From Sporichthya brevicatena (GTDB lineage: Bacteria > Actinomycetota > Actinomycetes > Sporichthyales > Sporichthyaceae), in the NCBI RefSeq assembly GCF_039525035.1, contig NZ_BAAAHE010000017.1, positions 1-64,000 on the forward strand: a stretch of DNA of 64,000 nucleotides, read 5' to 3'. The notes below the pieces were generated by a model. It was not told the DNA's origin. It ran no database searches and saw nothing but the letters and a program-made list of their open reading frames with translations. Made by a program: the position numbers and the translations under genes. This document shows positions 26,779-62,811 of the stretch, piece after piece; within the stretch, counting starts at the first letter, position 1, and each line of letters begins with the position of its first letter.

Positions 26779-26796
26779 GACGCACCTCCGCGGTGG

Positions 26797-26835
26797 GCGT
26801 CGTCTTGTCGTGCCGGGTACGACGCACTCGTCCGG
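26797..26835 (-). promoter_or_regulatory. Guanidine-III (ykkC-III) riboswitch
   Basis: In the leader of the SMR gene the RNA begins CCGGACGAG (26835-26827), continues with GTACCCGG (26820-26813) and ends GACAAGACGACGC (26809-26797). The order, spacing and bases match the roughly 40-base ykkC-III consensus known from actinobacteria. The 3' part sits just before the RBS, fitting translational control by free guanidine. Confidence 0.85.
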
Positions 26836-26941
26836 GGAGGCCGCGGCTGCGGCTCCGCCTTCAGGGTAGACGACCCGGCCGCCGCGGACCTTCTGCCGGC
26901 GACCTCCCGCCGGTAGCGTGCGCGCAGCGGAGGAGGCCCCC

Positions 26942-53983: not shown

Positions 53984-54019
53984 GAACTCCCCCGCCGGCC
54001 GAGGCCGACGGGGGAGTTC
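53984..54019 (-). terminator. Terminator of the glycine-rich protein gene
   Basis: GAACTCCCCCGCCGGC (53984-53999) pairs with 54004-54019 with one wobble, loop CGAG: a 16-bp stem about 40 bases behind the stop of the large surface protein and upstream of the E1 alpha operon. Confidence 0.75.
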
Positions 54020-54057
54020 GTGTTGTCCGTTGTGTTCAGTTTTGCGCGATGCGGGTC

Positions 54058-57000
54058 CTAGTCGCGGAAGCGACGGCGGAGAGCCGCGCCACCGAGCATG
54101 AGCACCGCACCGAGGCCGGCCGCCGCGCCCATACCGTCCGCGCTGCCACCGGTCGCCGGAAGCTCTTCCTCGACCTCGACGCCACCGGCGCTCGGCGGGG
54201 TGACGTTGACCTGGACCTCGCCGACGTCGCCACCGTTGCCGATGCCGATGCCACCGCCGGAGCCACCGTCGTACGGGCTGCCCGGGATGCCGTCGCCGCC
54301 GTTGCCGACGCTGACCAGGCCGTCAGCCGGGCCACCACGGCCGCCGTCGTCGTCGCCGGGGCCGGTGCCGCCGTCGCCGCCGTTGACGATCGAGGTGATG
54401 CCGCCGGGGCCACCGTCGCCACCCTTGCCACCGGTGCCGTTACCGCCGGGGCCACCGTTGTAGAGGCCGACCAGGACGACGTCGCCGCCGTTCTCGCCGG
54501 ACTCGTCGCCCGCGCCACCGTCGCCACCGTTGCCGGCGCCGACGACCGCCACGGAACCACCGTCGCCACCGGAGTGACCGGCGCCGGCGGAGCCGTCGCC
54601 ACCCTCACCCGCGCGGACGATGTTGCTGTCGCCACCGTCGCCGTCGAGGCCGCCACCGTTACCGCCGTTGGCGATCTCGATGAGGGTCGGCAGCGAGTGC
54701 GGAGCAGGGCCGCCGGTGTTGCCGGAGTTGCCGCCGTTGCCGACGTCGATCGCGCCGGGGCTGCGGCCGGTGTCCGGACCGGTGTTGGCGCCCGCGCCGT
54801 CACCGGCGTTGGCGACCGAGATGAGCGGGATGTCGCCCTTGTCCGGGCCCGCACCGTCGGCGTCCGCCGCGTTGAAGGCCTCGATGATCTGACCCTCGTT
54901 GTACGTGCCCGAGTCGTCGTCGCTCGGCTCGTCGGAGCCGACGTTGCCGCCCGCGCCGCCGTTGCCGATGTGGACGCCCGGAGCGTCGTTCGCGCCGGCC
55001 GGGGTGCCGGCACCGGGGCCACCGTTCGCGACGTCGACCAGCGGCTTGTTGCCGTTGCCGATCTCGATGAGGTGGTTCTTGCCGTTGTCCGCGCCGTTGA
55101 ACAGGGAGATCAGCGCGCCGTCGCCGCCCGGCAGGACGCCGTCGTCGTCGCCGTCGCCGTCGCCACCACCGCTGGTGTCGTCGTCGCTGTTCGGGTTGTT
55201 GTCGTTCTCCTCGTGCTTGCCGTTGCCGCCGTTGGCCGCACCGACGACCGCGGCCGAACCGCCGTCACCGTTGCCCGAGGAGTTACCGCCGTTGCCGAGG
55301 GCGAGGAGGCCACCGTCGGCCGGCTTGCCCGCGGTCTTCGGGTTGTCCGAGTCGCCGGAGTGGTCGTCGTTCTCGCCGACGCCACCGGTCGCGGCCTCGA
55401 CGAGCGAGCCGTCGCCACCGGAGCCGGAGCCGTCGGACATCGCGTCGCCACCGTTGGCGATGTTGATCAGGCCCTTGCGCTCGGCGTCGCTGCCGTCACC
55501 GGCACCGTCACTCGACGCCGCGCCGTCGCCACCGTTGCCGGCGTTGAGGATGCCGCCCGTGCCGTCGCTGCCGTTGCCGCCACCGGCGTTGCCGCCGAGG
55601 CCCGCGTCGACGAGCGTGCCCGCACCGCCGTTGCCCGTGCCGCCACCGGAGGAGCGCCCGCCGTTGCCGGCGTTGAGCAGCGCGCCCGTGGCGCCCGAGA
55701 CGCCGTTGGCCGGGTTCGCGTTGCGCGCACCGTCGGAGTTCGGCTTCGCGCCGCCGCCGCCGTTGCCGACGCCCGCGACCGTGCCGTCGCCACCGTGGTT
55801 GTGGCCGCGGTCCGAGGACCCGGCCTTCGAGACCTCGGCGACGCCACCGTTGCCGGCGTTGCCGCTCTCGGAGCCCTTGTCGCCACCACCGGTGCCAGCC
55901 TCGACGCCGGTGCCGTTGCCACCGTTGCCGGAGGAGGAACCCTTGTCGTCGCCACCGTTGCCGACGCCGGCGATGGTGCCGTTGCCACCGTTGCCGGTCG
56001 CGGTGCCCTTGGCGTCGCCACCGTTGCCGATGTTGCCGACCGCGCCGTCGCCGCCGTTACCGCCCTGGGGGCCGTCGTCGCTCGAGGGCGGGTCCTCGAC
56101 CGGGGCCATCTGGCCGGTCGGACGCAGCTCGTCGCCCGGGGTCTTCGAGGAGGTGCGCAGGCTCGCGTCGCTCCACGTACGCCCACCCGGGTTGTTGAGC
56201 AGGTTGAGGATGCCGCCGTCGCCGCCGGAGCCGTCGCTCTTGGGCTCCTTCGGCTCCAGGTTCAGGATGTTGCTCAGGCCGCCGTCGCCGCCGGAGCCCT
56301 CAGCCTTGCCCGCACCCGGGCCGAGCTGAGCGATCGTCAGAAGGTTGCCCTCGCCGCCGACCGGGTCGTCCTCGGCCGGAGCGGAGGTCTGGACGCTGCC
56401 GAGGTCGAGCGCCTCGCCGAGCTCGTCCAGCAGGGTGTCGACGGTCTCGCCGAGCTCCGCACCGAGGTCCGCGCTGAGCACGTCGTCGAGGAGGAGGCCG
56501 ACACCGTCGACAACCTCGTCGAGCACGTCGCCGACCGCGTCGAGGAGCTCCTCGACGACGTCCTGGCTGCCGCCCGTGAGGACGGTGACGAGCGTGCCGT
56601 CGCCGCCGGAGTTCTTCGGGACCGACTGCTCGATGTCGAGGATCGAGATCAGGTTGCCGTCGCCGCCGGAGGTCGGGATCTTCGCGTCCGCCGGGGGCTT
56701 GCGGATCAGGCCGTTGAGGGCCGAGATGAGGCCACCGTCGCCACCGACGCCGGGGCCGATCTGGCCACCGTCACCACCGTTGCCGATGTTGAGCAGCGCG
56801 CCGTCACCGCCGGGGCCGACGTCGCCCTGGCTCGGGTCCGCGTTGCCCTTCTCGCCGTTGGCGATGGAGATGAGGCCGTCCTCGAGGAGGCCGGTGCCCA
56901 GCAGGCCGCCGTCGGTGTCGACCCGCGGCTCAGCCAGCGTGCGGGCGACGTCCGCGCCTGACGGACCGTCAGGGGCGTCCTTGTCGAGCAGGGTGATGAG

Positions 57001-57978
57001 CTTGCCGTCCTTGGGGTCGAACGTGACGACGTTCAGGACGGACACGACGCCGCCGTTGCCGCCGTTCGCGTCGTCGTGCGCACCGCCGTCGGCGCCCTCG
57101 CCGATCTCGAGGATGACGCCGTCGCCACCCTTGTTCGGGAGCAGGCCACCGTCGCCACCGTTGCCGATGGAGATCAGGGCGCCGTCGTCGCCGGCCGTCG
57201 CGAAGCGCGGGGCGACCGACTTGCCGTCGCCGCCGTTGCCGATGGCGAGGATGCTGCCCTCGCCGTCGTTGCCGTCCTCGCCGAGCTGCAGCGGGCTGTC
57301 GTTGGTGCCGTCACCGAGGACGATGAGGCCGAGCACGTCGACGCCGGCGGTCGCGACGCGGGGCGCCACGGCGTCGGGACCCTCGGGACCCTGGTCGTTG
57401 CCACCGACGGCGATGGGGTTGGCGTCGCCACCGGAGTTCTCGCCCTGGATGTGGCCGCCGTCGACGACGTCGATCAGGCCGCCGTCGCCACCGGAGTTGT
57501 CGCCGTTGGTGTGGGCCTCACCGAGGAGGCTGAGGATCGAGCCGTCGCCGCCCTCGGCGCCCTCACCCGGCTCCGCCAGGTCGAGGATGTGGCCGAGGCC
57601 GAGCAGCTCGTCCTCGTCGTCCTCGTCCAGCTCGCCGAGGAGCGGCGAGAGGTCGAGGTCCAGGCCGTCGATCAGGCTCTCCTTCTTCACCGGGGCGAAG
57701 GGAATGGAGGCCTTGTCCTGCTGCTCCTGCTCGGCCGGCGCCACCGGGGCGCCACCGTCGAAGGTGATGGCCATGCCGGAGCGCTGCGTCAAGTCCTTGG
57801 CGGGCGCCCCGGCGGGGGCGGTGGAGGCTTGCGCGGTCGTGGCCACGCCGGCCGCCTGCAGGACGACGAGACCGACGCCCGCAGCGCATGCCAACGTCAG
57901 CCGACGAACTGTCGGCGTCATGCCGGACGACGCCGAGCGATGCCGCCCGGTGGGTCCAACAGAAGAACGAACTCGCAT
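54058..57978 (-). CDS. Large NGGDG-repeat, LPxTG-anchored surface protein (PGRS-like)
   Basis: A 1306-residue secreted protein. A signal peptide (hydrophobic RLTLACAAGVGLVVLQAAGV, cleavage after AQA near residue 51) is followed by a short acidic region (about 110-140), then over 1100 residues of imperfect units of 12-25 residues in which a short hydrophobic stretch (for example LISIG, ILNAG) precedes NGGDGG or NGGNG. At least a dozen NGGD motifs are present. A sorting signal closes it: LPATGG at 1273-1278, a hydrophobic helix and RRRFRD. It resembles mycobacterial PE_PGRS repeats without a PE domain. Start ATG 57978 has GAGG upstream; ATG 57921 is the alternative. Function unknown. Confidence 0.85.
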   Translation of the reverse strand: MRVRSSVGPTGRHRSASSGMTPTVRRLTLACAAGVGLVVLQAAGVATTAQASTAPAGAPAKDLTQRSGMAITFDGGAPVAPAEQEQQDKASIPFAPVKKESLIDGLDLDLSPLLGELDEDDEDELLGLGHILDLAEPGEGAEGGDGSILSLLGEAHTNGDNSGGDGGLIDVVDGGHIQGENSGGDANPIAVGGNDQGPEGPDAVAPRVATAGVDVLGLIVLGDGTNDSPLQLGEDGNDGEGSILAIGNGGDGKSVAPRFATAGDDGALISIGNGGDGGLLPNKGGDGVILEIGEGADGGAHDDANGGNGGVVSVLNVVTFDPKDGKLITLLDKDAPDGPSGADVARTLAEPRVDTDGGLLGTGLLEDGLISIANGEKGNADPSQGDVGPGGDGALLNIGNGGDGGQIGPGVGGDGGLISALNGLIRKPPADAKIPTSGGDGNLISILDIEQSVPKNSGGDGTLVTVLTGGSQDVVEELLDAVGDVLDEVVDGVGLLLDDVLSADLGAELGETVDTLLDELGEALDLGSVQTSAPAEDDPVGGEGNLLTIAQLGPGAGKAEGSGGDGGLSNILNLEPKEPKSDGSGGDGGILNLLNNPGGRTWSDASLRTSSKTPGDELRPTGQMAPVEDPPSSDDGPQGGNGGDGAVGNIGNGGDAKGTATGNGGNGTIAGVGNGGDDKGSSSGNGGNGTGVEAGTGGGDKGSESGNAGNGGVAEVSKAGSSDRGHNHGGDGTVAGVGNGGGGAKPNSDGARNANPANGVSGATGALLNAGNGGRSSGGGTGNGGAGTLVDAGLGGNAGGGNGSDGTGGILNAGNGGDGAASSDGAGDGSDAERKGLINIANGGDAMSDGSGSGGDGSLVEAATGGVGENDDHSGDSDNPKTAGKPADGGLLALGNGGNSSGNGDGGSAAVVGAANGGNGKHEENDNNPNSDDDTSGGGDGDGDDDGVLPGGDGALISLFNGADNGKNHLIEIGNGNKPLVDVANGGPGAGTPAGANDAPGVHIGNGGAGGNVGSDEPSDDDSGTYNEGQIIEAFNAADADGAGPDKGDIPLISVANAGDGAGANTGPDTGRSPGAIDVGNGGNSGNTGGPAPHSLPTLIEIANGGNGGGLDGDGGDSNIVRAGEGGDGSAGAGHSGGDGGSVAVVGAGNGGDGGAGDESGENGGDVVLVGLYNGGPGGNGTGGKGGDGGPGGITSIVNGGDGGTGPGDDDGGRGGPADGLVSVGNGGDGIPGSPYDGGSGGGIGIGNGGDVGEVQVNVTPPSAGGVEVEEELPATGGSADGMGAAAGLGAVLMLGGAALRRRFRD

Positions 57979-58350
57979 CTCAACCTCATCAAAGTCGCGG
58001 CGTCGCCGAAGACGGCCGACGTCCTGAAGCCCCGTGTCGTGCCGCCTGTTTCTACCAGTTCGTCACGGGGCACGCCCGTGCCGAAACGGCCAAAACTGGC
58101 TCCTGAGAAAACCCTGTGACACAACGTGACATTGCACGATCACGGGAGCGATGCGGAACACTGCGCTCACCTGCGCCGATTCCGGAAATCCACTCCGTTA
58201 CGTGATGTGAGACGTGTTCATCGTCACGCCGCGTTGTGGCCAATTAATTTCGCTCCGTGATCAATTCGGCCTAATCCCCGGCGTGTGAGCGCGCGTGTCC
58301 CAGGCCTCGACAGCGTGGTGTAACCCATTCGGAGCAACGTCCTCACGCGA
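57979..58350. other. 372-base region upstream of the surface protein
   Basis: No gene is seen. It should hold the promoter and leader of the surface-protein gene, both on the minus strand. A hairpin CACGGG-GCACG-CCCGTG (58064-58080) lies in the leader. Direct repeats GTGACACAACGTGACA (58116-58131, period 10) look like a site for an OmpR-type response regulator. AATTAATTT (58242-58250) is the only AT-rich patch and may mark the promoter. Confidence 0.45.
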
Positions 58351-60869: not shown

Positions 60870-62765
<1,896 letters not shown>

Positions 62766-62811
62766 ATATGGACTTGTGAAGTCCCTCAACCTACCGGGGC
62801 AGGATGAACCC

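Follow-up and report, generated by a model that had tools for sequence, protein, structure and literature searches.

A giant glycine-repeat protein with a sortase sorting signal in Sporichthya brevicatena and its family

The gene, its leader and its sorting signal

The window analysed here comprised 64,000 nucleotides of Sporichthya brevicatena (contig NZ_BAAAHE010000017.1, positions 1 to 64,000) and contained, on the minus strand at 54058-57978, a frame of 1306 codons encoding a predicted secreted glycine-repeat protein. A preliminary description made from the sequence alone had reported this open reading frame with its coordinates, strand, leader, repeats, LPATGG motif and basic tail, and all of these were recovered from the list of open reading frames, the translation and the sequence. 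The gene is organised as follows, dN/dS being the ratio of nonsynonymous (dN) to synonymous (dS) substitution rates:

54058..57978, minus strand: coding sequence of 1306 residues for a secreted strand-and-spacer glycine-repeat protein with an LPXTG sorting signal (open reading frame list and translation, dN/dS, homologues in 5/5 family genomes)
57826..57978, minus strand: N-terminal leader, residues 1-51, identified by eye, with a basic n-region (MRVRSSVGPTGRHR...), a hydrophobic core and likely cleavage after AQA
54193..57588, minus strand: repeat region, residues 131-1262, with about 32 aliphatic strand-like segments between Gly/Asn/Asp/Ser spacers and a unit near 22 residues
56374..56550, minus strand: insert of 59 residues (about 477-535) that breaks the repeats, modelled as a helix at low confidence and present only in the three genomes of genus g1
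54061..54162, minus strand: sortase sorting signal (TIGR01167) with LPATGG at residues 1273-1278, a hydrophobic stretch and an RRRFRD tail

In spite of its repeats the frame is under purifying selection, as shown by low dN/dS against two congeners. Comparison with G001, whose protein is 95% identical, gave dN 0.029, dS 0.129 and dN/dS 0.22; the two pieces found in G002 gave dN 0.18, dS 0.41-0.45 and dN/dS 0.41-0.43. It might be argued that GC-rich repeats hold the frame open by chance and that no protein is made, and a long antisense frame of 970 codons does lie opposite the coding sequence at 54049-56961. However, leader and sorting signal sit at opposite ends of the frame, the dN/dS values speak for selection and, among the matches listed, five genomes of two genera carried the frame, none with an internal stop. 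Chance is therefore a very improbable explanation. The antisense frame is a mirror image of the GC-rich repeats, and the repeat protein is a real, conserved, lineage-restricted predicted surface protein.

The protein is family-wide and otherwise an orphan. Scans of the 1306 residues against Pfam (E up to 1) and PHROGs returned no family. Solved structures gave chance-level matches only (E 0.69 and 1), and candidate relatives on plasmids, on viral contigs and among phage families were searched for and rejected. Among the entries listed from open-licence papers, none described the repeat protein or what Sporichthya carries on its surface.

The protein starts with MRVRSSVGPTGRHR, and the hydrophobic core that follows extends up to ...TTAQA, with S next, at about residue 51. 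By eye this is a leader of the Sec type, and it was conserved in the N-terminal rows of the alignment described below. The C-terminal end is LPATGGSADGMGAAAGLGAVLMLGGAALRRRFRD. The NCBIfam model for LPXTG anchors, TIGR01167, scored 21.7 bits over residues 1272-1305, above its cut-off of 15.9, and the repeat protein was its sole match in the genome at E up to 0.001. Homologues ended in LPETG (G004 and G002) or LPKTG (G003).

The preliminary description had let its claim of wall linkage depend on a sortase in the genome. Five sortase genes scored over the Pfam cut-off, one of class E and four class F-like, so a wall-linked glycine-repeat protein outside the mycobacteria is supported by the sequence. 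The class E sortase (L001) scored 231.5 bits against a cut-off of 160, and L002, L003 and L004 were class F sortases above the cut-off. L005 (1495-2427, minus strand, on G000:C21) is class F-like and fell below the class F cut-off (108 vs 166 bits). By eye it has S for the catalytic Cys (LITSTG) and R for the catalytic His, and it is possibly an inactive pseudo-sortase.

Repeat unit and conservation

The repeat region extends over about 1130 residues rich in Gly, Asn and Asp. The preliminary description had seen NGGDGG units over 1100 residues. The extent of the repeats was right, but the exact hexamer occurs only four times (mean 0.05, maximum 2 in 500 shuffles) and the repeat is degenerate, with 32 copies of GG[DN]G (shuffle mean 4.2, maximum 11) and 21 of GNGG (mean 1.7, maximum 6). 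A strict segment pattern, GxφφxφxN, was found in 13 copies (shuffle mean 0.3, maximum 3 of 2000) and a looser one in 32 (mean 13.5, maximum 27 of 1000). The autocorrelation of glycine peaked at lags 3 (z 4.9), 11 and 22, and that of LIVF residues at lags 3 and 22-23, z being about 4-5 at lags 11 and 22 for glycine and at 22-23 for LIVF. When the window protein and that of G004 were cut at GGxG, fragments of 11, 20 and 22 residues recurred among other lengths. Motif counts, fragment lengths and periodicity together define the unit as a strand-like aliphatic segment with (G)N at its end, followed by a glycine-rich hydrophilic spacer. The true unit is thus about 22 residues long, a "GxLIxIGN" segment plus its spacer, and the pattern lies far above chance.

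Gly makes up 29% of the repeat region, Asp and Asn together 19%, and aromatic residues 0.7%. The mature form has about 113 kDa, an isoelectric point of about 4, a charge of about -144, a grand average of hydropathy (GRAVY) of -0.41 and no Cys. Two minor matches were set aside. The open frame behind the one in G017 is an enolase by eye and matches only the Asp/Glu/Leu-rich insert region (477-564), and the one in G001 (residues 481-562) falls in the insert region as well.

A homologue of the repeat protein was present in all five genomes of the family Sporichthyaceae. A profile of the N-terminal half matched these five among 296 genomes of the class; the other 291 gave no match. Contig scans for relatives yielded one match, NZ_JACDFE010000231.1 (Sporichthya sp. 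MGR_bin378), apparently a G002 record. The protein appears to be confined to its own bacterial family.

The alignment (A1) contained the window protein, the proteins of G001 and G004, and two pieces each from G002 and G003. Identity to the window protein was 95% for G001, 75 and 77% for the G002 pieces, 49% for G004 and 46 and 51% for the G003 pieces; the insert was absent from the other genus. Across the genus boundary (G004 and G003) Gly was kept at 83-84% of aligned positions, Asn at 51-57% and the Asp/Glu class at 27-35%. Of the aliphatic positions inside segments, 88 of 91 (G004) and 87 of 93 (G003) retained an aliphatic residue (LIVMFA), compared with 51 of 83 and 54 of 82 outside the segments. 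Entire segments were kept in 26 of 29 cases in G004 and 23 of 29 in G003; these counts omit segments meeting a gap (3 of 32 in G004), and each G003 piece spans part of the protein. The Asp of GGD behaved differently. Within the genus, G001 kept it in 32 of 32 cases and G002 in 22 of 28, but across the boundary G004 kept it in only 8 of 32 and G003 in 11 of 33, the replacements being N, S, H, P or G. The window protein has a net charge of about -144, the G004 protein one of -52. Since segments and glycines are kept and Asp/Glu are not, the former are the constrained part of the protein; potential calcium ligands are not. Short hydrophobic stretches alternating with Gly-Asn-Asp turns, already recognised in the preliminary description, are the most conserved feature. 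As an observation apart, the G004 protein (L022:10834-14763, plus strand) has a late short insert with two Cys (SSCSVTV...TTCASD) that is absent from the window protein.

A possible coat polymer and its alternatives

The preliminary description had called the protein PE_PGRS-like and had proposed a glycine-helix sandwich or a calcium-binding coil. The protein had been spotted correctly, and its lack of a PE domain was borne out: there was no Pfam match in the protein and none to PF00934 in the five family genomes, in a search whose control was E. coli and which covered no mycobacterium. Like the PE_PGRS proteins of mycobacteria, which are described as reaching more than 1000 residues and as lying at the cell surface (PMC9436101), it has long glycine-rich repeats. 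This likeness, also to the PGRS proteins of the tuberculosis bacterium, is only a loose one. PGRS membership was rejected, since the PGRS domain (PF21526) matched none of the five family genomes and GGX-triplet runs are few. The domain was found in 14 of the 296 class genomes, all in family f4 (genera g5 and g78), which are most likely mycobacteria. Runs of at least three GGX triplets cover 1% of the repeat region, compared with 47% in the mycobacterial-type PGRS domain L033 (region after GRPLI), 12% in L034 and 3% in L032, the regions of the last two including other domains. In the best stretch of 150 residues the cover was 8% in the window protein, 79% in L033, 36% in L034 and 8% in L032; because L032 is low as well, the yardstick is an uneven one. 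The window protein also has a Sec-type leader (by eye) and an LPXTG motif in place of PE-directed export by ESX-5 type VII secretion, almost no aromatic residues, and one gene per genome found here, except for a diverged relative in G004.

The published model for mycobacterial PGRS is a sandwich in which polyglycine-II helices stack and one edge is hydrophobic and aromatic (PMC9436101). According to a review, a roll or helix that binds calcium is a possible fold of PGRS repeats (PMC11939664), an idea put to the window protein here through Asp conservation. Glycine triplets stacking as left-handed helices in the window protein would fit its 29% Gly, its GG motifs, the lag-3 autocorrelation of glycine and the GGX runs of up to four triplets in a late stretch near residues 1105-1250. 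But the missing PF21526 match, the low GGX cover (with the reservation about the yardstick just given) and an aromatic content of 0.7%, where the PGRS models call for an aromatic-rich edge (PMC9436101), make such a sandwich improbable. A calcium-binding coil, in which Asp and Asn of the turns would bind calcium and drive folding outside the cell as in an RTX-like beta-roll, is slightly more improbable still. Both kinds of protein have short repeats rich in Gly, Asp and Asn with a hydrophobic position, Asp and Asn are abundant in the repeat region, and the Asp of GGD is well kept within the genus. The RTX repeat, however, is a nonapeptide, compared with about 22 residues here, and neither an RTX model nor any other Pfam model matched at E up to 1. 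The segments persist in another genus and the Asp of GGD does not, which argues against a calcium coil. The PGRS and calcium readings accordingly do not hold. AlphaFold models, for their part, neither support nor exclude a sandwich, a roll or disorder: residues 130-640 with one homologue (alignment depth 2) gave a mean predicted local distance difference test score (pLDDT) of 32.2 and a predicted template modelling score (pTM) of 0.25, residues 640-1262 alone (depth 1) gave 33.5 and 0.16, and no fold was predicted for either half. The N-terminal model, at its low confidence, placed short strands on most aliphatic segments and a helix on the insert.

At about even chance we take the repeat protein to be an acidic, sortase-linked strand-and-spacer coat polymer. 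The class E sortase would probably cleave the secreted protein between the T and the GG of LPATGG and attach it to peptidoglycan. The 32 or so aliphatic segments (GxLIxIGN and variants) might then make weak contacts of the beta type within and between neighbouring molecules, while the mostly acidic, hydrophilic spacers of Gly, Asn, Asp and Ser would keep the polymer extended and hydrated. Hyphae or spores would thereby gain a fibrous coat, with a job akin to that of the long chaplins and of CwpA, CwpB and SspA of Actinoplanes. Class E is our guess for the enzyme because LPATG differs by one letter from LPVTG of Actinoplanes missouriensis. That species is described as having the same sortase set as the window genome, with only class E needed for sporangium formation and apparently acting on the LPVTG of SspA, CwpA and CwpB (PMC13251363).

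Chaplins themselves were considered and rejected, as no family genome out of five matched PF03777, which matched all three comparison genomes. Chaplins are described as having short strands with GN turns, the GN motifs being 12-13 residues apart (PMC13251363). That the family lacks a chaplin match, and that chaplins too use strands with GN turns, favours a wall-linked coat polymer. Several points weigh against this reading. The protein is hydrophilic overall, in contrast to the hydrophobic chaplins and CwpA/B; its mean hydropathy speaks against a layer that repels water as chaplins do, so that a hydrated sheath or an SspA-like disordered brush is left. The C-terminal AlphaFold model was free of strands of at least three residues, and neither half had a predicted fold. 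Because the window sequence served to choose the segments, and GN and GG, the best alignable motifs, to anchor the alignment, the method itself partly favours the contrast in conservation. A preference of class E for LPATG is guessed by analogy, and class E sortases of Streptomyces are reported to act on LAXTG (PMC5148588), which calls for caution on the assignment.

The nearest rival to the coat polymer is a fully disordered acidic brush free of strands, a wall-linked polymer acting by hydration, by charge or as a scaffold for a polysaccharide matrix. The very low AlphaFold confidence, the charge of -144 and the negative GRAVY all suit a brush. Action of this kind has been proposed for SspA of A. 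missouriensis, described as a spore protein that is disordered, linked by a sortase and required for sporangia to be rigid (PMC13293333). Yet a pure brush would not need the aliphatic segments, which are the best-kept feature across genera apart from glycine, and the charge is not conserved (-144 vs -52 in G004). We therefore regard the brush as somewhat unlikely, though far ahead of the sandwich and the coil.

A coat polymer of this kind would differ in several respects from the known ones. The long chaplins ChpA-C of Streptomyces (PF03777) are described as similarly sortase-linked, with short hydrophobic strands and closely spaced GN turns (PMC13251363). The window protein, however, has no PF03777 match, no Cys in its mature form, a strongly acidic and hydrophilic character, about 32 segments, and LPATG in place of LAXTG. 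With 1306 residues it is much longer than CwpA (337) and CwpB (436) of A. missouriensis, which are described as hydrophobic (PMC13251363), and its LPATGG lies at residues 1273-1278, compared with a sorting signal at residues 158-191 in SspA (PMC13293333). It is set apart from these three by their descriptions, not by their sequences.

The hyphae of Sporichthya are upright and have holdfasts, and its spores are motile. Motility of the genus is also on record (PMC6113628). It is tempting to speculate that the Sporichthyaceae, which are filamentous actinomycetes, have replaced chaplins by one giant acidic sortase-linked protein, a separately evolved developmental coat whose grammar is convergent with that of chaplins and PGRS domains, but we consider this rather doubtful, a shade more so than the brush. 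Sporichthya is a little-studied genus in the poorly studied actinobacterial order Sporichthyales, and here it has a family-wide predicted surface protein. If this is a coat protein, it offers a simple test of whether chaplin-free aerial growth rests on an independent polymer. It also cautions against labelling every glycine-repeat protein PGRS-like, since the conserved unit here is another one.

Genomic context and other features of the window

Two further features flank the coding sequence:

53984..54019, minus strand: hairpin with a 17-bp stem just 3' of the stop codon (sequence and fold)
57979..58350, minus strand: upstream region with 87% identity to G002, compared with a dS of 0.41-0.45 in the coding sequence

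The hairpin is a probable transcription terminator parting the gene from the downstream genes, which encode dehydrogenases of the branched-chain type (named by eye from their translations). It was not among the terminator-like sites found because no T run follows the stem. The upstream region probably holds promoter and leader; other intergenic stretches were 79-88% identical to G002. The upstream region contained neither an Rfam family nor a sigma-70-like site, its RNA fold was unremarkable (z -0.96), and the upstream regions of the other genus aligned poorly to it. A conserved frame of seven codons starts at 58221 (MNTSHIT, with V for I in G002).

G001 and G002 have the gene between the same neighbours as the window does. 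Contig ends split the copy of G002, which has the expected neighbours on each side. The repeat protein of G004 sits on another contig than the window-type neighbours, and in the stretches read the G003 copy was not beside them. The two contig-end pieces of G003 (L024:9430-10827 and L025:1-2283) overlap by about 38 residues and differ in sequence there, which points to two copies or to mixed strains. At the position that the repeat protein occupies in Sporichthya, G004:C19 encodes a different protein of 783 residues (L023:5016-7364, minus strand). Its leader is 59% alike over 54 residues, its end is LPETG and its middle is rich in Pro, Ala, Ser and Lys, with scattered LLDVVNGG-like segments remaining.

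Elsewhere in the window a thiamine pyrophosphate riboswitch (RF00059) was found at 62663-62773 on the minus strand, upstream of a thiC-like gene (named by eye), and a Guanidine-III riboswitch (RF01763) at 26794-26858, also on the minus strand.

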